From assembly GCA_903898185.1 (NCBI GenBank), contig CAIUEN010000446.1:1-36242 (forward strand): DNA of 36,242 bases, given 5' to 3'. A program made the translations under genes and the position numbers. Each line of letters begins with the position of its first letter. The first letter of the stretch is position 1. This document shows positions 17,942 to 36,020 of this stretch, piece after piece. Source of the DNA: an uncultured Verrucomicrobiales bacterium (GTDB lineage Bacteria; Verrucomicrobiota; Verrucomicrobiia; Limisphaerales; Palsa-1400). The notes beneath the pieces were generated by a model that had not been told where the DNA came from, did not search any database, and saw only the letters and a list, made by a program, of their open reading frames with translations.

Positions 17942-18280
17942 TCATGGCTTGGCGGCGGTGAGTCTTTCCAGGGCGCGGCGGCAAAGGGGATGTTGAATTG
18001 AGCGTAGCCCGATGCTCAAGGTTTGGGCGGTGGACTTGTCCAACGGCTCGAATTCACCCGCCAGGACTTGTTTGGAGACGTGCAGCCAAGGGGCGCAGTC
18101 GTCTGGCAGACCGAGGGCGCGGGATTCCAGCAGCATGAGCAATTCGGTTTTGTGCTGCCGCAACGAGTCCGCCAATTCAGCGGGCAGCCGACTGCCAGGA
18201 ATAACGGCTAAGCGGTCGCCTCGCGGCTCAAGTCGCAAACCAAGAGCGGCGGCACGGCGGAACAAATCAGGTGCGGTCAC
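17942..18280 (-). CDS. TubC N-terminal docking domain-like protein
   Basis: Small protein of 112 residues. The N-terminal half (LFRRAAALGLRLEPRGDRLAV, then LPAELADSLRQHKTELLMLL) matches the TubC_N docking fold, which is also common in mobile elements beside primase genes, where its role is unclear. The C-terminal half is helical and unrecognised. The ATG overlaps the primase stop by four bases, so it is coupled to the replication gene. A DNA or protein docking role in replication is an inference. Confidence 0.7.
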   Translation of the reverse strand: MTAPDLFRRAAALGLRLEPRGDRLAVIPGSRLPAELADSLRQHKTELLMLLESRALGLPDDCAPWLHVSKQVLAGEFEPLDKSTAQTLSIGLRSIQHPLCRRALERLTAAKP

Positions 18281-20613
18281 AGCAGCACCTCGTCTGGTTG
18301 GGGGTTTTCAATCGTAACCGCGTAACTTGCCCCGTCTTTATTGCCTTTTTTGCCTGTTTCAATCCGTAACCCGGTTATTGCTGGTGACGGTTCAGAAAGT
18401 GAAAAATCGCCAATATCTTCGGGGATGGTTACGGGGTTACGGTCTGAAAGGGGGGTGTTTGGCAGATAACGGGCGAAGGCATCCGCAAAGTCCGCCAGGT
18501 GATAGCCTTTGGCGGTGTCGCCGGAACTCAGTTTGAGTGTGCGTGGAGAGACTTTAAACGGTTTAAGCAACCGCGCCAGGGTGTTTGCGGTGATCGGCTT
18601 CCGATCTCGGCCAAATTCGGCCCAGAGCTGCCCTTCCATCGAGAGCAACAGTTTAACCAGCATTCCAGAGGAGATTTTGGTCGCGGATTGGCCGTAGAAA
18701 ATGGCCCTAATATCCGCCAGGAGCGTTGCGCCAATGCCTTGTGCGTCCGTGTCATCGGTCGCCGTCAAGGCGGCAAAGGCAGCCGCCGCCCGGCGCGGCC
18801 AATCGCCGCCCGCAACTTCGGCAATAGCAAAGAGAGGTCGCCAGTTGTCGGCTAGGCGGTTGAATGCGCCGTCCGGCAATGTCGGGTCGGAAGACTCAAA
18901 CGCGGGGCGTTCATCAGCAATCCACCGCGCCAACTTCCGGCACAATTGGGTTTCTGATTCAGTGTGCCGTGAATCGAACCGCGCGGGTAATTCGCCCGGT
19001 TTGGCGCGAGTCAACCGGATAACGATGCTCCGGTCGTGCAACGTTACAGGCAAGTGGCCAATGCCACAAAGAACGGCTGGGGCGAAAACATTGAACGCTC
19101 TTACTTCGTTGGAATCTCCTTCGCAGCGCAATGCCTGACCGCCACGCCGATGCCCCGCGTTCAACATTCCCCGCAGTTCCTCATTGTCACCTAACCAACT
19201 GTCACACTCGTCGGCGAGCACCGTTGGCTTACGCGATTGAATTACGCGGAACAAAACAGCCACGCTCAAATTCTCCGTCGCCAACGGGCGCGGCACAAAT
19301 AGCATAACTAGGTCGCGGGCTGTTGTTTTGCCGCAACCCCGTTCCGGTGAACAGATGTTGAGTCTCGGTGTTATGGGGAACGCCTCAAAGCAATGCGTGT
19401 GGGCGGCCCAAAGCGTCATGCCATCGGCAGCGCCCGGCGGCAGGGCCAGGAAGCGGCGAAAGGTGGCGGCAATCGCGTCCAGGACTTCCGCGCCATTAAC
19501 GGCTTGCGGCCACGGTTCAACGTCCGGTGATTTTACGGCGCGGCCTTGGAGCATCGAGCCAGCGCCACCCGCCGCGCCGCGCAATCGCTCGACTTCCTTG
19601 TCGAGAGTGCCAACACGAATTCTCAAAGCGTCGGCCTTTTGTTCGCGGCAGCGATCATACTCTCCGCCGGGGAGCGCGGCCAAACGGGCATATATTTCTT
19701 CGTCGGTTTCTGTTGGTGTCTGTGCGGCGGCGATCTGTTTATTCACGGTGTCAAGTCCTTCTCGTTGGTGCAGGTCATTGAAGTCGGTCGGCTTGTTGGT
19801 GGTTGAACGGAAACAAGGCGAAGCCAGTTTGGCCCGGATTGCCTTTGCGGCTTCTGTGGCTTTCGTCATACCCGGGTTGCTGTCCGTCCATTGGTCATTG
19901 TCGGCGGCAACAATAATTTCGCGATCTGGCCACTTGGAGCGGAGATCTTCCGCAACGCTTTTCAGGTTGGCGCAATTCATGGCGCAGACTGTTGCGAAGC
20001 CGGTGGCTTGGTAAATGGTCGCGCCGGTGGCGAAACCTTCGCAAATCACAAGCGGCCCGGTGGGATTACCGACCGGAGTGAAGTAGCATCCTTGGACGCG
20101 GCCGCCCGCAAGGAAACCTTTCGTGCCATCCGGGTCAATAAATTGAAGACTATGCAACACGCCGTCGAAGTCGCGTAACGGTAGGACAATCGTGCCGTGA
20201 TAATCGCGGGCTTCACCGAACTCTTGAACGCCTTTCGATGTTAGATAGGGGTGCGCTGTCAGCGGCTTAGACCGCTTCAGAATCCAACCGGCGGTTTCTT
20301 TCGCCTTTTCGCGGAGTTGCTTTTCGGCCCGCTCGCGCTCCGCTTCCGCCCGCTTCCAGGATTCCCCGATAGCCCGCTGTTGCGAATGCGTCAACTCACT
20401 CGGCTGTTTCTCACAAAACGTTTCTTTGATTTGCCGCTTCCAACAACCAAATGCGCCCGCCATTGGCGGACCGGTATGAAGGACATACCAAGAATTCCGG
20501 GCGCGGTCACCAGCGGCTTTGAAACGGCGCAGTATGCCATCCTCTAAGATCGGGCCGGAGTAATCCAACCCGGTGCGGAGCATCTCGGCGCGGAATAAGT
20601 CAATGGCGTTCAT
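18277..20613 (-). CDS. Toprim primase / DUF3631 helicase-like replication protein
   Basis: Large replication protein of 778 residues, probably a primase fused to an ATPase for element replication. Residues 40-60 (SWYVLHTGPPMAGAFGCWK) match the start of satellite and plasmid primases. A Toprim domain follows: VICEGFATGATIYQATG at 189-205 with catalytic Glu192, and IIVAADND at 233-240 with the metal-binding Asp residues. A P-loop ATPase comes next, with Walker A ERGCGKTT at 424-431 and a Walker B-like TVLADECDSW at 464-473. The C-terminal part resembles DUF3631. The ATG at 20613 shares a base with the previous stop (TAATG). I reject 54 open codons upstream. This gene type is characteristic of P4-like satellites. 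Confidence 0.88.
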   Translation of the reverse strand: MNAIDLFRAEMLRTGLDYSGPILEDGILRRFKAAGDRARNSWYVLHTGPPMAGAFGCWKRQIKETFCEKQPSELTHSQQRAIGESWKRAEAERERAEKQLREKAKETAGWILKRSKPLTAHPYLTSKGVQEFGEARDYHGTIVLPLRDFDGVLHSLQFIDPDGTKGFLAGGRVQGCYFTPVGNPTGPLVICEGFATGATIYQATGFATVCAMNCANLKSVAEDLRSKWPDREIIVAADNDQWTDSNPGMTKATEAAKAIRAKLASPCFRSTTNKPTDFNDLHQREGLDTVNKQIAAAQTPTETDEEIYARLAALPGGEYDRCREQKADALRIRVGTLDKEVERLRGAAGGAGSMLQGRAVKSPDVEPWPQAVNGAEVLDAIAATFRRFLALPPGAADGMTLWAAHTHCFEAFPITPRLNICSPERGCGKTTARDLVMLFVPRPLATENLSVAVLFRVIQSRKPTVLADECDSWLGDNEELRGMLNAGHRRGGQALRCEGDSNEVRAFNVFAPAVLCGIGHLPVTLHDRSIVIRLTRAKPGELPARFDSRHTESETQLCRKLARWIADERPAFESSDPTLPDGAFNRLADNWRPLFAIAEVAGGDWPRRAAAAFAALTATDDTDAQGIGATLLADIRAIFYGQSATKISSGMLVKLLLSMEGQLWAEFGRDRKPITANTLARLLKPFKVSPRTLKLSSGDTAKGYHLADFADAFARYLPNTPLSDRNPVTIPEDIGDFSLSEPSPAITGLRIETGKKGNKDGASYAVTIENPQPDEVLL

Positions 20614-20876
20614 TATTCGCCACCCCGCTGGCGGCGTAGCAGCCACGCCTCGACGCTGGCGGGGTGAAAAAAAAGGCGCCTCCCAAGAACGATATGCGGA
20701 AGTCCGCGCTTGCGTAGATCGTGGATTGTCCGGCGGCAAACCGGGACATGCCGGATGAATTCCGGCACATCCCATAAGTCACCGAGAGATGGCGTCTTGA
20801 TGGTCTCAACCTGTACTGCCAGCTTTCCTGTTCCCGTGGCAACTTCGGGCGTTTGTGTTATTTTGCTCTTAGGCAT
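20613..20876 (-). CDS. AlpA/excisionase-like HTH protein
   Basis: DNA-binding protein of 87 residues with a winged-helix HTH_17 pattern: LWDVPEFIRHVPVCRRTIHDL, then GLPHIVLGRRLFFHPASVEAW. Such proteins act as excisionases or as AlpA-type activators of the integrase. The N-terminal 30 residues are a loose tail. The ATG at 20876 is preferred; the longer frame to 20969 overlaps the upstream gene. The stop shares TAATG with the primase start. It lies between the integrase side and the primase, the usual place for AlpA. Confidence 0.8.
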   Translation of the reverse strand: MPKSKITQTPEVATGTGKLAVQVETIKTPSLGDLWDVPEFIRHVPVCRRTIHDLRKRGLPHIVLGRRLFFHPASVEAWLLRRQRGGE

Positions 20877-21699: not shown

Positions 21700-23004
21700 C
21701 TATTGTGTTTTCACTGCTGGAAGTTGAATGACGTTAGCAGTTTGCGACGGCGCGACGGAGAACCACTTTTCGGCTTCTGATTTGGTTGACAGTCCTTTGT
21801 AATGCTGGTGAATCATGGCCGGACTGTTGCCCGCCTGCTGGGCAGTCAGGTTTTCGTTCCCGTGCGCGGCGTAATGGTAGGAGCAAAAGGCATGGCGGAG
21901 GCCGTTCGCTTTGCGCGTCACCTTGGCGTCTTCGCAGAGTTGGCGAAATTGTTGCTGCCAGATGACTTCGGCGCTCTTGGCGGTAATGGGGCAGACATTG
22001 CCAGCGGCGCAAGTGCGGAAGTCGGATAGCCAATTTGATAAGGTTGGGCAGATTTCCACAAGCCTGCGCTGGCGGGTCTTGGCTTTGCCCGCCGTAATTT
22101 CGATATGGCCAGGGACGCGCCAAACGTCCTCCCAAGTCAGGCGCAGGAGCTCGGCGGAGCGCAGACCGGCAAAGCCGCCAATGGCGATCATGGCCCGCAT
22201 GGGGCCTTCCGCCGTTTCGAGCAATGTTCTAAATTCGGCGCATGTGTAAAATTCCGTCTCGCAGTCGTTGGAATGTTCGGGGCGCATACCGTCGGCCTCG
22301 GCCATGCGATGCGTCACAGACAAGTAGTCCTTGCGGACACACCATTGAAGGAGTTGTTTGATTGTGGCGCGGTGATGATTACGGCTCTTGGCAGAGAAAT
22401 CGCAAACAGGCTTGGAAGTCAAAAATGTGTCGAGATGTTCCTTGCCCAGATCGCAAACCGCATGGCCGGGGAATGTGCCAGAGAACCGGCGCAGCATAAT
22501 GGCGCGGTTGTATGCGTATTTGGGCGAGAGTTGCGCCCGTTGGCCCTCGGCGGCCTTGGTGCGTGGTTCCTCTGACTTGATAAACTCTTCAACGGCTTCG
22601 GCTAGGTCTTTGCGCTTCACGGTGGCAACGGTGGATAGGTAGCCCGTCACCGCATCGGCTAGGGGCCGATTACTCAAACGCACCGCAGCTTCGCAGTATT
22701 CGTTCACGGTGGCCCGCAAGGAGATTGTGCGCCCTGTTTGTTGGTGAAACTGCCTGAGTCGTTCCAGCGCGGCTAGGGCGTCATTGGCTTGGGAATGGGA
22801 AAGGGCTGTTGCCTGCCCGCCTTTGGATAACTCTTTAACCAGAGCATCGGCCCTGAGTTTGGCTTGGCTGTAGCTACGGAATCGCTCCAACTTTCGCTTC
22901 CCTGCGACATTCCAAGCCAGCCGATAGGCTCCATACGCCTTTGATTTTGCGTAGATGGTGGCCAGCACTAGTCCACGATGCCTGATTCGCATGGGAAACC
23001 GCAT
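21700..23004 (-). CDS. tyrosine recombinase (integrase)
   Basis: Site-specific recombinase of 434 residues that integrates and excises the element at tRNA-Leu. The catalytic domain shows Arg282 in GLRSAELLRLTW, Lys near GKAKTRQRR, Arg370 in NGLRHAFCSYHY and nucleophile Tyr402 in IHQHYKGL. The usual first His of the HxxR box is Asn368, and the later box His is also Asn (AGNSP). These changes occur in some phage-type integrases. The N-terminal part holds a probable arm-binding region and a SAM-like core-binding domain (residues 130-235). It starts 87 bases beyond the tRNA 3' end and reads away from it, the classic arrangement. Confidence 0.92.
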   Translation of the reverse strand: MRFPMRIRHRGLVLATIYAKSKAYGAYRLAWNVAGKRKLERFRSYSQAKLRADALVKELSKGGQATALSHSQANDALAALERLRQFHQQTGRTISLRATVNEYCEAAVRLSNRPLADAVTGYLSTVATVKRKDLAEAVEEFIKSEEPRTKAAEGQRAQLSPKYAYNRAIMLRRFSGTFPGHAVCDLGKEHLDTFLTSKPVCDFSAKSRNHHRATIKQLLQWCVRKDYLSVTHRMAEADGMRPEHSNDCETEFYTCAEFRTLLETAEGPMRAMIAIGGFAGLRSAELLRLTWEDVWRVPGHIEITAGKAKTRQRRLVEICPTLSNWLSDFRTCAAGNVCPITAKSAEVIWQQQFRQLCEDAKVTRKANGLRHAFCSYHYAAHGNENLTAQQAGNSPAMIHQHYKGLSTKSEAEKWFSVAPSQTANVIQLPAVKTQ

Positions 23005-28410: not shown

Positions 28411-28869
28411 CTAACGCACTTCCCGAATGCGGATCGTAAACTTCACAGCCGCCGTGTTCATGGCGGTGTAAGTGACCGTTTCCTGAGCGTTCTCGGTGAG
28501 AAGCATGTTTTGCCAGGGCGTTTCGTCGCCGCTGGAGAAACCGTCGGGGCCTTTGAACACGCAGCTCACCTGCACTTGGATCGGTTTCTCCAGGCGATTG
28601 CGCAAATTGGCCTGCACCTTCAAGCGTCCTTCTGGCGAGACCCCTTGGATCAGTTCGGAAACAGTGATCGAACGTTGGACCCGCCGGTCCATCAACACGA
28701 TGGGGTCGCGGTTTTCCAGATCGTATTTATCGGTGTTTTTTGGGACGTAAGCTCCGCCCATGTGGCCGGTAACGACGGTTTGGGTGGTGTCATGCACGGC
28801 GGTGCGCGTCTGTGCGCAACCAGCAAGGATCAGGGTGGTAATGGTGGTAAGAATCAGATGTGTTTTCAT
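28411..28869 (-). CDS. YcfL-like (DUF1425) lipoprotein
   Basis: Outer-membrane-type lipoprotein of 152 residues. The signal peptide ends in the lipobox ILAGC with Cys18. The mature part is a beta-rich domain like DUF1425/YcfL: DPIVLMDRRVQRSITVSEL, then GRLKVQANLRNRLEKPIQVQ and CVFKGPDGFSSGDETPWQ. In Enterobacteria ycfL lies beside lpoB, and the same association is kept here, as the third gene after lpoB and a COG3014-like gene. Four bases separate it from the gene before. Its function is not established; a role with LpoB in envelope growth is inferred from neighbours. Confidence 0.82.
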   Translation of the reverse strand: MKTHLILTTITTLILAGCAQTRTAVHDTTQTVVTGHMGGAYVPKNTDKYDLENRDPIVLMDRRVQRSITVSELIQGVSPEGRLKVQANLRNRLEKPIQVQVSCVFKGPDGFSSGDETPWQNMLLTENAQETVTYTAMNTAAVKFTIRIREVR

Positions 28870-28873
28870 GGTG

Positions 28874-30052
28874 TCAAAAACTTGTGGATTGATCGCTGAT
28901 ATAAATAATGCTGTCCCGAGACCCGACGGGGATATTCAAGGTAATAGTCTTGCTGAGCCCTTCAACAGCGTCCCCGTAAGCGTCCTGGAAATCAATGCGC
29001 ATGGTGTGCTGGCCGGGCGAAGCGGTCAGCGCCACAAAACTCAGATACTGGGGAAGGTTGTCCCATGCGCGTATATCCGCCTCGGGCGTTGTGGCGGCTG
29101 AAACAACCTCACTCAGCACGCCCAACGCCAGCAACCCGGCGCCCACTTCGCGCGTTCCGCGGTTCTGCAGGAGAACCGCTCCGCCAACAATCGCGCCCAT
29201 CCCCGCAATGGCTGTGGTCTCCTTGAACACCGCTTTGTTTCCAAGAATGTGATCCATCACACGTCCGCCGCGAGTGATCGCCTGAAAGTAAAGATCATCG
29301 AACGCTGGCGCTCTGACCGATTGATTATCCACGGTCACCAAGGCATTGCGAACACGCTGGTTCCCCTCGCCAAACCTCAGTTCCTGACCATACTCGCCAG
29401 TGGCAAATTTGTGCGGGCCCTGGCCAAAATCCAGAAAAATCAAAACATTCGCCTTGGGATCGCAGGCTGGGAGCGAACCGGTTTTATCCAGCTTGCGCGC
29501 CCGTTTGTCCGCATCCGAGCCATCGCCAGCGAGTTTGGCAGTTGCCAGTCCGTCGAGATAATCCAGCAGCACGTAGTCCGCTGAGTACGTTTTGTTCTCG
29601 TTATCGCTGTCCTCAATTTGCGCGCTTCGGAAACAAGCCCTGGCGTTGTCTGGTTCGCCATCCATCCAATATAGAATGCCCCGATAATAAAAGGCCATCA
29701 CCCGCTCGTAGGGTTCGCCGAGGAAAGTCTTCTTGGATTCGCTGTGGAAATAGCCCCGCGCCTTGCGCGAGTCGGAGTCGGCAGTCTTGATGCCACCGAT
29801 GCTCAGGATGGCATCGTCAAGCAACCGTTTGGCCTCTTCAAACTGACCTTTGCGCATATAGGCCAGCCCTGCTCGATATTCCCACAGGACACGGTCACGC
29901 TTTGGCCCACGCTCAATCGCCACCCGCGAGTCGGCGATTGGGTCGCCGGTCAGGCGCAGCGAGGAATAGTCAGAATCGGTGGCGCAGCCCGTCGGGATGA
30001 TCAACAACAACCCCCCGAGCAAGCTGGCACACAGCACAGCTTTCATACGCAT
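28874..30052 (-). CDS. COG3014-like lipoprotein
   Basis: Lipoprotein of 392 residues. The signal peptide ends in the lipobox IPTGC with Cys23. The N-terminal half has a TPR-like character (WEYRAGLAYMRKGQFEEAKR, then ERVMAFYYRGILYWMDGEPD). A Gly/Ala-rich hydrophobic stretch (AIAGMGAIVGGAVLL, then GAGLLALGVLSEVV) lies near residues 285-325. The C-terminus looks like a beta domain (ASPGQHTMRIDFQDAYGDAV). It lies between the lpoB-like and ycfL-like genes, spaced 12 and 4 bases, so it is one operon. The family is known mainly from this neighbourhood. The function is unknown. Confidence 0.8.
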   Translation of the reverse strand: MRMKAVLCASLLGGLLLIIPTGCATDSDYSSLRLTGDPIADSRVAIERGPKRDRVLWEYRAGLAYMRKGQFEEAKRLLDDAILSIGGIKTADSDSRKARGYFHSESKKTFLGEPYERVMAFYYRGILYWMDGEPDNARACFRSAQIEDSDNENKTYSADYVLLDYLDGLATAKLAGDGSDADKRARKLDKTGSLPACDPKANVLIFLDFGQGPHKFATGEYGQELRFGEGNQRVRNALVTVDNQSVRAPAFDDLYFQAITRGGRVMDHILGNKAVFKETTAIAGMGAIVGGAVLLQNRGTREVGAGLLALGVLSEVVSAATTPEADIRAWDNLPQYLSFVALTASPGQHTMRIDFQDAYGDAVEGLSKTITLNIPVGSRDSIIYISDQSTSF

Positions 30053-30064
30053 TCCAGCGGTGTC

Positions 30065-30691
30065 TTAACGATAAACCGCATCATCCTGCCCCTGCTTCTT
30101 AATCCGGTGCGAGCCGTTCCAGATGATTTCGCTCGTATCCGGATTGATCAGCTCAAACGAGTAAAGTATGTAATCACTCGTGCCGGCTGAGGTCCGAGTG
30201 GTCTGGCCGACCAGTTTGCCGGTCAGCATGTAGTCAGCGCCCTTGAACTTGTTGACACTCACATCGGTGCTGCTGGTCACCTGACCACTACGCTTGAGAT
30301 CGCGCTCCTTTTCCAACTCGGCCATCCGGTCGCGCGCCAGGAAACGCACTTTGCCGCCCGAGCGTTCGTTCAGCAATGCCATGATTTCCTCCAAAAAGAT
30401 GTTTTTGTTGATAGGAAACCGAGTGTCGTTCTGTACCGGCAGCACCACAATGCGCGGCGCGGTCTGAGCGTTGGCGATTTCGGGAATGCCCATAATCCCG
30501 CGCGCCATCTTATCAGTCACAGCCACAATGTCCTGCGACTCAATGCCAGTGCCGCTGACAAATCCGCGTTCGTCGGGTTTCATTTCGCGAGCCGCCACGC
30601 CGGAAGGCTGCTTGACGCCGTAAGAAGCGCATCCACTGACAACAGCGGCTGCCAGAACTGCCGAAAGAGAACGAAGAAAACTTAATTTCAT
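30065..30691 (-). CDS. lpoB: LpoB-like penicillin-binding protein activator
   Basis: Outer-membrane lipoprotein of 208 residues. The lipobox VVSGC places Cys at residue 21. The mature domain matches LpoB/YcfM: PRIVVLPVQNDTRFPINKNI, then FLEEIMALLNERSGGKVRFL, DYMLTGKLVGQT and SYELINPDTSEIIWNG-like SFELINPDTSEIIW. In E. coli LpoB spans the periplasm to activate PBP1b during peptidoglycan synthesis. This copy has a shorter disordered linker than the E. coli protein. It opens the three-gene lipoprotein operon. No clear Shine-Dalgarno site precedes the ATG. The partner PBP is not in this window. Confidence 0.87.
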   Translation of the reverse strand: MKLSFLRSLSAVLAAAVVSGCASYGVKQPSGVAAREMKPDERGFVSGTGIESQDIVAVTDKMARGIMGIPEIANAQTAPRIVVLPVQNDTRFPINKNIFLEEIMALLNERSGGKVRFLARDRMAELEKERDLKRSGQVTSSTDVSVNKFKGADYMLTGKLVGQTTRTSAGTSDYILYSFELINPDTSEIIWNGSHRIKKQGQDDAVYR

Positions 30692-31421: not shown

Positions 31422-31913
31422 TTACCGCCGCAGCATTGCCGCGAGTGTGCCCAATACAATGATTGCCAACAAGATCGCCCAGGCGACAAACCGGTTGCGG
31501 GCGACTCGTTTTTCGTAGCGCAATGATCTCAGTCCCTGAACGCTTCCGGCCGCCAAATAATTGACAAGCCTCGGATTGGATACCGGTGGCCCGTAGAAAT
31601 GTTTGCGAATGCGGTCGATCAGGCCGATCAGGTGATACTTGCGCAACCCCAGTTCGTTGAGCGCATGCGGGGTGGCTGGCTGCGATTGCTCTTTAAGACG
31701 GTTTTGATCGACTCTTTCGAAAATCGGCTCGACGCTGCGTGTCCCAGCCAATTGCGCCTGAATGATCGGACCGCTGGAACTGCGCCGCATTGGAGCCTCA
31801 GATTGAGCTTGGTTGTTCACCTCTTTAATCCTGGCTTCCAGAGCGGCAATCTCAGAATTCAACGCGCGGGCGCGATCTGAGATGGGGTCGTGTTTATTCT
31901 TGAAAATCCCCAT
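31422..31913 (-). CDS. tail-anchored protein A (unknown)
   Basis: Unrecognised protein of 163 residues. The N-terminal half is a short coiled coil (RARALNSEIAALEARIKEVN) followed by a Ser/Pro-rich linker. The C-terminal part has LRKYHLIGLIDRIRKHFYG and ends in a single hydrophobic helix with a basic tip (FVAWAILLAIIVLGTLAAM, then LRR). This predicts a cytoplasmic protein anchored at its C-terminus. I use the ATG at 31913; a TTG at 31922 is possible. It follows the other tail-anchored gene by 12 bases in the same operon. No function can be assigned. Confidence 0.7.
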   Translation of the reverse strand: MGIFKNKHDPISDRARALNSEIAALEARIKEVNNQAQSEAPMRRSSSGPIIQAQLAGTRSVEPIFERVDQNRLKEQSQPATPHALNELGLRKYHLIGLIDRIRKHFYGPPVSNPRLVNYLAAGSVQGLRSLRYEKRVARNRFVAWAILLAIIVLGTLAAMLRR

Positions 31914-31925
31914 GCGGTTCAAAGA

Positions 31926-32627
31926 CTAACGGCGCAGCAGCAACGTGAGAAAAATAACCAGGCCGAGAGCCACCAAAGGCCAGGTCAGAGCGAAACCGAG
32001 CTTGCAGAGTTGCTGCATGCTCAAGGAAGCCAGGTCGGATGTCTTTTCGCCGCCAGGTTTCGCATCGGCATCGGCCATTCCATTGAGCAGCGGAAACTTC
32101 AATCGCGCCGAGTTCCATTCCATCCGCGCGTTTTCAATCGTGGTCAGCGCCCGTGTCAGTTCAACGGTCAAATTTTCCTGGGTCCAGACATTTTCGTTGA
32201 TCGCCTGCACTTTGTCCGAGGCTACGCGAAATTCCCCCAGAAACCGCGCCATTTGTTCGGCTTCGCGCCGGGTGGTCAACTCCATGTCTTCGAGCAATCC
32301 GATGCCTCGGGTGAGGTTTTGCAGCATCTCCTCGCGCCCGTTGTGATACTCGGCTTGCCGACGGCGCATTTCCTCCAGAGCGGCGCGTTCGCGCTCAAGT
32401 TCCTCCTGGGCGCGTTTGAGCTTGGCAAGTTCCTGCTGCTTGGCGCTTACCTGCGCTTCAATTTCCTCGCGTGTCGGCGGCCGGCTGCCGCTTGCGACAT
32501 GGTTGCCGCCGCCAATACTGCTGGTCAGTACAGGGCTGATCTCCACAGCAGGCAACGGCGCGGTATAAGCACTCTTCCGCGCTGACTGAAATTCGCTGTC
32601 GATGAAATCAGAGCCATCATTAGACAT
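31926..32627 (-). CDS. tail-anchored protein B with coiled coil (unknown)
   Basis: Unrecognised protein of 233 residues. The first 50 residues are unstructured. A strong coiled coil follows (EIEAQVSAKQQELAKLKRAQ, then ERERAALEEMRRRQAEY) and a helical middle with REAEQMARFLGEFRVASDKV. It ends in one hydrophobic helix and a basic tip (GFALTWPLVALGLVIFLTLL, then LRR), the same plan as its neighbour at 31422. The ATG at 32627 is preferred over a GTG at 32633. It is divergent from the ExbB-like gene across a 178-base space, so the four genes may share control. Confidence 0.72.
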   Translation of the reverse strand: MSNDGSDFIDSEFQSARKSAYTAPLPAVEISPVLTSSIGGGNHVASGSRPPTREEIEAQVSAKQQELAKLKRAQEELERERAALEEMRRRQAEYHNGREEMLQNLTRGIGLLEDMELTTRREAEQMARFLGEFRVASDKVQAINENVWTQENLTVELTRALTTIENARMEWNSARLKFPLLNGMADADAKPGGEKTSDLASLSMQQLCKLGFALTWPLVALGLVIFLTLLLRR

Positions 32628-32680
32628 GCGCACAGCGTATCACGCCTGTTTCGAGTGTAAAGCCCCTGCTTCAGGAGCGC

Positions 32681-32805: not shown

Positions 32806-34512
32806 ATGAAACGCTGGGTGTTAGCTCTTATATGCGCCATCTTCGGATTGGCGCTGCTGTTTTGCGGCCTGCTGGTGCCGATGCACCTGCAAGCGGTGGA
32901 TGTCGGCGTCATCCAGCGCGCCGGCAAAGACACCTCCACCGTGGTGGTTCACGGGATGAATTGGGTCAACGGAGAGAATTGGGGCGCCGCTCAAATGCTC
33001 ATGGACGCTTCGACGGGCGTGGTTGGACGCAACAGGTTGGCGATTGCAGTCACGAATCTCGCTCAACTGCATCCGGAACTCATTTCCTGGGGCGGTGGCG
33101 ATCCCCGTTTTCGAGCTCTTTTCAAGCCCGATTCCAAAAAGCTCAGCACTGGTACATATCCGTTTGCCGGATATGTTTTACGCCTTGAGAACCGGGGCAG
33201 ACTGCTTGATTTTCTGCGCGCTTCGACTCGTTCCGATGTAAAGGAATTGCTGCGCTGCCGCGAACTGAAAGAAACCGCAATTTTCGATCCATCGCTTTCA
33301 AGTTCCGGCCAGGCATTCGATGCCGCGCTGACCCTCTGCGGGCTTTTGATGGAAGGTGGGCGCTTAAATCCACGCTTGAACGAGACCGTGTATCTGCTGG
33401 CGATCAAAGCCAACCGGAACGAGGGTTCGCGCGAACTGGAAGCCCTGCTGCTTGATCTCACCTCGCTGGCGCAGCGGATGAACTGGGGGCAGTTGACTGT
33501 ATTTGTCAGCCAGATCAGTACCTCCGATACCCTGCATATTCTTGCCGACCAAGCCATCAAAGCGCGGGCAGACCTTGATCTCGCCCAGATTTTTGCCGCC
33601 GTTTGCCTCACCGGAAAACCCGCTGCTGTGGCCAATTACCTCGCAAACTTCAGCCAGACCGGCCTGGATGATATGGGACTGACCCTCCGATTTGGCGCTG
33701 GCGCTGTCAACGAACTTCTGCAACGCAATCAGAGGCTTCATGTATCGAGTTGGCGGATGCGCATGGGGACAATTCCCCCTTTCGGACTGTTTCTGAGGTT
33801 TGCCGCAGACCTCTGCTGGCTGGCTCCCGCGCTGGGGTTTGCCTTGAAATGGCTTTTTATCCTTGCGTCCGGTTTTCTGTTCGCTCTGACGCTGCACTTC
33901 TGCAAACTCTCTCCCACGGATATGGAACGGCCATTGCAAGTGCGCGGCTTGCATCTGATCCGCGAGTTTCTCTTTGCGCTGGGCTTCCTGCTGATGGTCC
34001 TTATTCTGAGCGAGCCATTTCTTGCCCAGAAAAGCCAGAAAGTGGAAAATGCCTTTCGATTGCGCGTGCCCACGGTGGGTGCCGTCGTCTCCGCTGGAAA
34101 GATCGGCGCTGCCTCAACAATTATGAACCAACTCAATGTGTTAACTCTGCTCGTGTTTTTCGTGCTCCAGGGGCTGATCTACACGGTTTGCCTGGTGAAA
34201 CTAGCTGAAATACGCCGACAAAACGTGCCACCGAGACTCAAGCTCAAACTGCTCGATAACGAGGATCACCTCTTCGACGCCGGCCTCTACCTCGGCTTCG
34301 TCGGCACGATCATATCGCTCATCCTGGTATCGCTGGGCATCATTGAGTTTAGCCTTATGGCAGCGTACTCATCCACATCATTCGGCATCATCTTTGTCTC
34401 AATCTTCAAGATATTCCACTTGCGGGGCACCCGCCGAAAGTTGTTGCTTGAGGTCGAAGCTGAGATCGCCATATCCGAACATCAAAGCGCACAGGTTGTC
34501 CTGCCGTCATGA
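32806..34512 (+). CDS. ExbB/TolQ/MotA-like channel protein with large extra domain
   Basis: Membrane protein of 568 residues. A first hydrophobic helix (6-25) is followed by about 295 mostly polar residues without a known domain, probably periplasmic. At least four more hydrophobic regions span about 325-367, 386-405, 444-465 and 492-536. The last hairpin is the telling part: GLYLGFVGTIISLILVSLG (493-511), then AYSSTSFGIIFVSIFKIF (520-537) and RRKLLLEVE. This matches the final helices of MotA/TolQ/ExbB stator subunits (GLLGTVxG and ALxTTxFGLI). It overlaps the next gene by four bases (ATGA); that gene encodes a matching ExbD/MotB-like partner. A role as an ion-driven force generator is inferred. 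Confidence 0.7.
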   Translation: MKRWVLALICAIFGLALLFCGLLVPMHLQAVDVGVIQRAGKDTSTVVVHGMNWVNGENWGAAQMLMDASTGVVGRNRLAIAVTNLAQLHPELISWGGGDPRFRALFKPDSKKLSTGTYPFAGYVLRLENRGRLLDFLRASTRSDVKELLRCRELKETAIFDPSLSSSGQAFDAALTLCGLLMEGGRLNPRLNETVYLLAIKANRNEGSRELEALLLDLTSLAQRMNWGQLTVFVSQISTSDTLHILADQAIKARADLDLAQIFAAVCLTGKPAAVANYLANFSQTGLDDMGLTLRFGAGAVNELLQRNQRLHVSSWRMRMGTIPPFGLFLRFAADLCWLAPALGFALKWLFILASGFLFALTLHFCKLSPTDMERPLQVRGLHLIREFLFALGFLLMVLILSEPFLAQKSQKVENAFRLRVPTVGAVVSAGKIGAASTIMNQLNVLTLLVFFVLQGLIYTVCLVKLAEIRRQNVPPRLKLKLLDNEDHLFDAGLYLGFVGTIISLILVSLGIIEFSLMAAYSSTSFGIIFVSIFKIFHLRGTRRKLLLEVEAEIAISEHQSAQVVLPS

Positions 34513-36020
34513 ACCGCTCCATACTCATCGTCATTTGCGATTTCCTATTGATCAGCCTGCTGGCGTTCTCGTCTGCGGATATCAATAATGTCGCCAAGAA
34601 CGGCAGCGAGCGGACTGCCAAGTTGACCTTGGCCACCAATCAGACCGATCCCAAGCAGGAACTCGGCAATGTCATGCGTCTGGCTCTTCAGGAAGAAAAG
34701 CGCAGCCAGGAAATGCTCGTGGGTGAACTCAAAGAAACCCGCCAAGTCGCTGAGCAAAGGCAGACTCAGTTGACCGAGCGTGAGAAGCAATTGGTCGAAG
34801 AACGCAAGAATCGCGAGAGCCTCGCAAGCGAATTGAACAAGACCATCACGGTGGCCGAGGAAGAACGCAAAACCAGCCAGCAATTGGCGGGACAACTCAC
34901 TGAAACCCGCCAGATCGCCGAACAACGGCAGGCTGCTCTGAGCGAACGGGAAAAACAGCTTGCCGCCGAGCGCAAAAAACGCGAGCAACTGGAGGCGCAG
35001 CTCGAAACGACCCGTCAAGAAGCCGCGCGCGCGTCAACGCTCGTCGCAGAATTGGATAAGCGTCTCGATCAAACAACGGCGCTTCAACAGCAACTGTCGC
35101 AACTCCAGCAGAGCAACCAAGTCATGCAGACAGAGAAACAGAGGCTGTCCACTCAACTCCAAGTTACCGAAGCTCAAAAGAAGGCCGCAGCCGATCAAGC
35201 CGCTCATTTGGAGGAAGAGGTCAAGATCGAGCGTCAGGAGAAAGACAAACTTGCGCAGAACATCGATGCCCTCTCCAAGAATTCCGGCCAGTTGGCGGCG
35301 GAAATCCGGGACAATCGCTCGCTTACCCCCAATAACGTGTTCTCCGAGTTCGCCAGCAATCGCGTTCAGGCTCATTTCAAGGCCACGAGGACCGCGTTGT
35401 TTGGCGTGGACTCGATTCGCAATCGTCAGACTCATGCCATCCTTGTAACCGACGGCAAGACCACCTACGGCCTCTGCCATGTGCAGGAAACCCCAATGAT
35501 CTTCTCCGATCCAGGTTTGGACTGGGAATCGCTGGAAGGCGCGCTTTCGCGCGAGGCCATATCGTTTCCGATCCGATGCATTTCATTCCATCGATTCGAC
35601 CCCCGTGTGATCCTGATTCCGATCTCTGAACCAGAAGCCAAGGCTCTGCGCTGCCGGATCTATCGCACGTCGGCTGAGCCCTTCAAATTCGCTGATGCGG
35701 TGGTGGTTGGCCCGAAAGAAGGTTATTACGGCGAGTGCAAATTCCAGATTGATCTCTCCACCCCAGGGTATGTCCAGATGGACCGCAATTCACTGACCGG
35801 CTTGTTTGGCAAATTCAATCCGTCCACCGGCGATCTGGTGTTCAGCAAAACCGGCGAGTTGCTGGGTGTCATGGCCAACAGCACCTACTGCATGGTGATT
35901 CGCGATTTCAGCGCTGCGGCAACCTTCAAGTTTGGTCCCGGAACTCCAGATCAGCACACCGGCTTGACACTGGCGCAGTTCTATGGGTTTCTTGCCCAAC
36001 TGCCGTTCAAGCTGCAATAA
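34509..36020 (+). CDS. ExbD/MotB-like protein with coiled coil and protease-like domain
   Basis: Protein of 503 residues with one N-terminal transmembrane helix (ILIVICDFLLISLLAFSS). The acidic residue Asp11 in it matches the proton-carrying Asp of ExbD, TolR and MotB. A coiled coil spans about 50-265 and contains a duplication with a 56-residue period (ETRQVAEQRQ at 76-85, ETRQIAEQRQ at 132-141). The C-terminal domain (about 275-503) may be a chymotrypsin-like fold: His324 in YGLCHVQ, Asp364 in FDPRVILIPI and Ser439 in NPSTGDLVFSKTGELLGVM sit in the order of the catalytic triad. The usual GNSGG is changed to STGD, so activity is doubtful. It is coupled by ATGA to the ExbB-like gene. Confidence 0.7.
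   Translation: MNRSILIVICDFLLISLLAFSSADINNVAKNGSERTAKLTLATNQTDPKQELGNVMRLALQEEKRSQEMLVGELKETRQVAEQRQTQLTEREKQLVEERKNRESLASELNKTITVAEEERKTSQQLAGQLTETRQIAEQRQAALSEREKQLAAERKKREQLEAQLETTRQEAARASTLVAELDKRLDQTTALQQQLSQLQQSNQVMQTEKQRLSTQLQVTEAQKKAAADQAAHLEEEVKIERQEKDKLAQNIDALSKNSGQLAAEIRDNRSLTPNNVFSEFASNRVQAHFKATRTALFGVDSIRNRQTHAILVTDGKTTYGLCHVQETPMIFSDPGLDWESLEGALSREAISFPIRCISFHRFDPRVILIPISEPEAKALRCRIYRTSAEPFKFADAVVVGPKEGYYGECKFQIDLSTPGYVQMDRNSLTGLFGKFNPSTGDLVFSKTGELLGVMANSTYCMVIRDFSAAATFKFGPGTPDQHTGLTLAQFYGFLAQLPFKLQ

Follow-up and report, generated by a model that had tools for sequence, protein, structure and literature searches.

Could two overlapping genes near the end of a Verrucomicrobiales contig encode a membrane motor that differs from those already described? 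Ion-driven motors of the MotAB/ExbBD type come in few kinds, which serve swimming, outer-membrane import, envelope stability, gliding and phage defence. An earlier note on this DNA had proposed an ExbB/MotA-like protein coupled to an ExbD/MotB-like partner with a protease-like tail, in a layout unfamiliar among described systems. The window analysed here is the entire source contig, a stretch of 36242 bases from a genome of 4.48 Mb. The architecture, the buried Asp, the hairpin and the unfamiliarity of the layout in the original proposal are all upheld by our analysis. The motor reading itself is plausible and specific rather than established, and we hold its chances to be about even.

The strongest competing explanation is a membrane assembly that is not a motor. 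Here A would act as scaffold or receptor, with B as its obligate partner in the periplasm, the Asp would be a buried assembly residue, and the head of B would bind envelope proteins or signal to A in the manner of a DegS-type sensor without catalysis. We consider this possible, with a probability clearly below even, and give the observations that bear on it with the features concerned.

A conserved two-gene system

Both open reading frames lie on the forward strand, at the coordinates given in the earlier note. Gene A (32806 to 34512, 568 aa) encodes a multi-helix membrane protein, the candidate ring (stator) subunit. Gene B (34509 to 36020, 503 aa) encodes a single-helix partner with a coiled coil and an HtrA-like head. 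The two share the bases ATGA (34509 to 34512, forward strand), the B start ATG (34509 to 34511) overlapping the A stop TGA (34510 to 34512), and each matches once in the source genome. Searches of Pfam and NCBIfam gave no match for A and only generic coiled-coil matches, with no informative family, for B. No description of the pair was found in the open-access literature searched.

Homologues of A were detected in 105 and homologues of B in 97 of the 384 genomes of the source class. When the two lists were compared by hand, all 97 B-bearing genomes were also among the 105 that carry A, a count in which the genomes are not phylogenetically independent. Joint retention is informative here because the presence of the genes is patchy across the class. 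In five of the eight A-bearing genomes outside the B list (G010, G026, G035, G060 and G077) a diverged B comes immediately after A, in a sixth (G366) B adjoins A, and in a seventh (G337) a contig end cuts the locus and the start of B is visible after A. The eighth (G266) has only a decayed A, a remnant with internal stops (L218, G266:C12:284000-294000), and no B was detected in that genome; this suggests joint loss of the pair. In two lineages (G286/G370 and G276/G342) A and B are non-adjacent and both are retained. At four loci (L140, L070, L216 and L217) A is intact and B lies elsewhere in the genome; the gene following A in L070 and L140 resembles lpxA by sequence.

A phylum-wide search showed that, outside the source class, A homologues are mostly of ~170-220 residues and match only A residues ~390-560; some longer forms also occur there. 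The gene for the compact A is immediately followed by one for a B-like protein of ~485-630 residues. In further stretches, A was directly upstream of B for 54 of 56 matches, two of them class members found through B. More than 100 loci preserve the pair, only a few lineages departing from the order in which A is upstream of B, and this conservation shows that the features of its layout are not due to chance. The pair is far more widespread than could be known from the sequence behind the earlier note. The genes are real, and together they form an unnamed, unannotated, phylum-wide, usually single-copy two-gene system. Should it prove not to be a motor, it would still be an unnamed, conserved envelope system of two proteins.

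Architecture of protein A

Protein A begins with a transmembrane helix (residues 5-23, 32818 to 32874, forward strand; hydropathy 2.89; helix 2-23 in the model). The addition of some 295 residues that had been noticed after this helix is borne out: residues 33-320 (32902 to 33765) are predicted to form a helical-repeat domain, with a pLDDT of ~90 for most of it, in single-chain models that predate the compact homologues and were built from shallow alignments (17-18 sequences). The domain is probably periplasmic, is missing from the compact homologues and has no informative fold match in the PDB. Its presence in A would suit a scaffold or receptor. A Foldseek search of the PDB with the whole A model, the core of which is of low confidence, gave no match.

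The C-terminal four-helix module (residues 382-562, 33949 to 34491) constitutes the whole protein, ~180 residues, in the compact homologues of other classes. Since the compact form consists of this module only, the module is the core of A, and the N-terminal helix and the helical-repeat domain are an addition. Compact A proteins have scarcely anything outside the membrane except a loop of some 50 residues, which argues against a scaffold or receptor role.

As had been claimed, A ends in a hairpin, formed in the model by helices 492-509 and 517-562 and hydrophobic to ~537. Its candidate pore helices (residues 491-537, 34276 to 34416) are conserved. In 52 diverse A cores, D491, L494, G497, Y521 and G527 are invariant, the T501 position is T or S in 52/52 and the T524 position T or N in 52/52; residue 535 is an invariant basic residue (K/R). 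With the cytoplasmic ends set at D491, K535 and B residue 3, in a topology deduced from hydropathy and N-terminal charges, T501, T524 and Asp11 of B would all lie 8-11 residues into the membrane. An Asp and two polar hairpin positions at about equal depth, as in stators, weigh against an assembly without motor action. The invariant K/R535 could in principle pair with the B Asp in such an assembly, but it would be situated close to where its helix ends on the cytoplasmic side. Only ~20 residues of A separate helices 442-467 and 492-509, with a similar loop in the compact forms, and the cytoplasmic helical domain found between helices in known stators is absent from A at this position.

Architecture of protein B

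The single opening helix with a buried Asp, also proposed previously, is clear. A strongly hydrophobic helix occupies residues 3-21 (34515 to 34571, forward strand; hydropathy and model) and contains Asp11 (codon 34539 to 34541). This Asp is present in 151/151 downstream partners examined (132 by profile and 19 by eye, some loci being redundant), and every one of these proteins starts with two or three polar residues followed by the hydrophobic helix.

A coiled coil follows in the model (residues 51-269, 34659 to 35315). It carries the duplication reported in the earlier note, with a period of 56 residues (34721 to 34817 and 34889 to 34985; its best stretch has 22 of 30 residues identical, and at the DNA level 97 nt are 71% identical). 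At 0.15 nm per residue, a fully stretched rod of 219 residues could reach up to ~30 nm, about the width of the periplasm. The long conserved rod and its head suggest force or reach across the periplasm, and they make it improbable that A is simply an ion or solute channel or a transporter gated by B, with no motor action. The polar hairpin positions and the B-helix Asp could line a conduction path in such a protein, but there is no match to a transporter family.

The C-terminal head (residues 285-503, 35361 to 36017) has an HtrA/Deg-like trypsin fold by Foldseek. The best PDB matches are Deg2, Deg9, HtrA and DegS (probability 1.00), with TM-scores that are low because the rod was included. This fold would also be appropriate for a sensor of the DegS type. 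The protease-like tail that had been suspected is therefore confirmed as a fold, but not as an active enzyme. The triad-like residues H324 (35478 to 35480), D364 (35598 to 35600) and S439 (35823 to 35825) were assigned by motif, not by structural superposition. Among 59 source-class proteins the first is conserved in 55/59, the second in 57/59 and Ser439 in 44/59 (S 44, K 6, T 3, and others). There is no GNSGG-type motif in the B head and no conserved catalytic triad; by inspection, the His and Ser are lost in other classes. Because the nucleophile position is not conserved, the head is probably a pseudo-protease in which catalysis has been lost, and an active protease at the tip of B is disfavoured.

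Possible relationship to known stators

Known stators are two-gene units in which the single-helix B subunit carries a mid-membrane Asp (PMC9389320, PMC12505986); in TolQR and ExbBD this essential Asp lies near two conserved threonines (PMC12215075). Protein B has the single N-terminal transmembrane helix and conserved Asp of MotB, ExbD and TolR, and the last two helices of A carry threonines of the pore-lining type.

When A and its compact homologues were searched by HMMER against Pfam, NCBIfam and the sequences of the PDB, no credible hit emerged, and in particular there was no match to PF01618 or to the MotA, ExbB and TolQ chains in the PDB. A search of ten whole genomes with a compact-A profile (E<=10) did not return their ExbB genes. 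This absence of stator homology at the HMMER level favours an assembly that is not a motor.

When the profile of 68 compact A sequences was compared by HHalign with that of 32 ExbB-type sequences of the same phylum, the score was 25.1 and the probability 29%, which is short of any accepted threshold. None of 300 shuffles within the membrane segments reached this score (11.4 +/- 2.2, maximum 20.4). Reversed profiles scored 12 to 14, and in a control against the compact-A profile 54 membrane-rich ORFs scored at most 21.1, while the 32 single ExbB sequences averaged 19.4. The positive control, MotA of the source genome versus ExbB, scored 30.8 for the hairpin and 41.1 for the full profile, both above the value for A. 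With a 52-row set that includes window-type sequences the match to ExbB was weaker (20.9), and 1 of 200 shuffles was as high.

The HHalign register places GLFGTV and AYSST-GI of A on GLLGTV and ALITT-GL of ExbB, with both helices as expected, and the signal comes mostly from ~12 columns around GLFGTV. On the basis of this register, T501 and T524 would be equivalent to Thr148 and Thr181 of ExbB. ExbB has a conserved Pro141 seven residues ahead of Thr148 (PMC12215075), and compact A has an invariant Pro eight residues before the Thr that matches this pore Thr. For the B helix, comparison with ExbD gave 8.2 versus 10.9 +/- 2.9 for shuffles, a test in which a helix of 20 residues has little power.

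The stator relationship put forward in the earlier note thus survives in part: compact A has a weak profile-profile match to ExbB, but there is no HMMER match and the B helix gives a null result against ExbD. The resemblance of A to ExbB is suggestive of a real, if sub-threshold, signal, and as a score above all shuffles it tells against an assembly without motor action. For B, comparison at this level appears to offer no independent evidence of stator kinship beyond the Asp. Because A neither matches the profile nor has the cytoplasmic domain, placing it in PF01618 is not justified; these two shortfalls lower the case for membership of the MotA/ExbB family more than the case for a stator-like way of working.

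The system resembles ExbB-ExbD and TolQ-TolR in being a two-gene unit, in the GLxGTV-type motif and the threonine in each helix of the last A hairpin, and in a single-helix partner with a constant Asp, which is essential in the known motors. Unlike ExbB and TolQ, A lacks cytoplasmic helices, has an extra helix ahead of the hairpin and shows no detectable PF01618 match. Unlike ExbD and TolR, B has a cytoplasmic start of three residues, a rod of ~220 residues and an HtrA-like head in place of the periplasmic domain; no Pfam match to an ExbD/TolR or OmpA-like peptidoglycan-binding periplasmic domain was found in B.

With MotA-MotB the pair shares a four-helix core, probably the same topology and a single B helix with Asp-Phe, and work would likewise be delivered via a partner anchored outside the membrane. 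It differs in lacking the FliG torque-generating cytoplasmic domain and the OmpA-like peptidoglycan-binding domain, and no plug was recognised by sequence. The source genome has its own MotA (L030).

ZorA-ZorB is a stator-type pair that serves a purpose other than motility and bears long extensions of an unusual kind. A and B have a comparable stator-type layout with long extensions, but here the long extension is on B and is probably periplasmic. The PADLOC Zorya models gave no ZorA or ZorB match for either protein, and no ZorC- or ZorD-like neighbours were seen beside the pair. With HtrA, Deg and DegS, B shares the trypsin-type fold of the head, with His and Asp largely conserved in the class and the Ser present in the source protein. 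It differs from them in its variable Ser position, in the absence of a GNSGG-type motif and of a PDZ domain, and in carrying the head on a coiled-coil rod.

A kinship of the A core with KwaA, the membrane protein of Kiwa, a system of defence against phages, was rejected as very improbable: one compact A is hit by the PADLOC model for KwaA at E=8.4e-7, and 5/52 members in all are hit, but most compact A proteins fail to match it, the profile-profile score with real KwaA (15.7) is within the range of shuffles (13.2 +/- 2.4, maximum 19.8) and A is paired with B rather than with the KwaB-like gene that adjoins real KwaA. A relative from another class has what looks like a genuine Kiwa pair, with a KwaB-like gene after KwaA (L211).

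A proposed mechanism

Our preferred reading, to which we give an even chance, is that A and B assemble in the inner membrane into a minimal and divergent stator-like complex, which is powered by ions and drives a periplasmic rod. We infer its topology, ring, stoichiometry, ion flow, rotation and target as follows. Several copies of the four-helix core of A would form a ring with the last two helices lining the pore, and a B dimer would place its N-terminal helix in this pore. Ion flow past Asp11 of B and the T501/T524 ring of A would turn or tilt A around B. The work would pass into the periplasm via the B coiled coil to the protease-fold head which, being probably non-catalytic, may grip or bind a target in the envelope. 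The helical-repeat domain that A has in the source class may anchor or regulate the ring.

We attach slightly less than even probability to a further, tentative proposal: that the pair represents a class of ion-driven membrane motor new to science and widely distributed in one phylum, in which a four-helix A is devoid of a cytoplasmic domain and B transmits force via a rod of at most ~30 nm to a pseudo-protease grip. If true, it points to an unknown energy-consuming envelope process in these bacteria, and the stripped-down A would reveal which parts of a stator are truly needed.

Genomic context

In the source class no conserved neighbour of A and B was found; the pair stands alone and its downstream genes vary. 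The genes upstream of A in the source contig were not found by BLAST in related loci. These include two adjacent reverse-strand genes, divergent from A (31422 to 31922 and 31926 to 32633), each encoding a coiled coil with a C-terminal transmembrane helix (a tail-anchored layout). They have no informative family match and were not seen beside A and B at related loci.

The compact A and B of other classes are followed, in at least seven loci, by a gene for a large protein. The one such gene scanned (L086:910-3606) encodes a Ser/Thr protein kinase fused to an FGE-sulfatase domain, and the third genes in L090, L091, L093, L094, L099 and L100 cluster with it by BLAST. A kinase-FGE gene directly downstream is a point in favour of an assembly that is not a motor.

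Two further regions of the source contig, both on the reverse strand, were noted. A lipoprotein-type cluster at 28411 to 30691 includes a DUF1425 (YcfL-like) protein, a TPR protein and an LpoB peptidoglycan-synthase activator. The genes at 18280 to 20775 and 21703 to 23004 give a Toprim plus DUF3631 protein and, nearby, a weak phage-integrase match; this combination suggests a mobile element in the contig.
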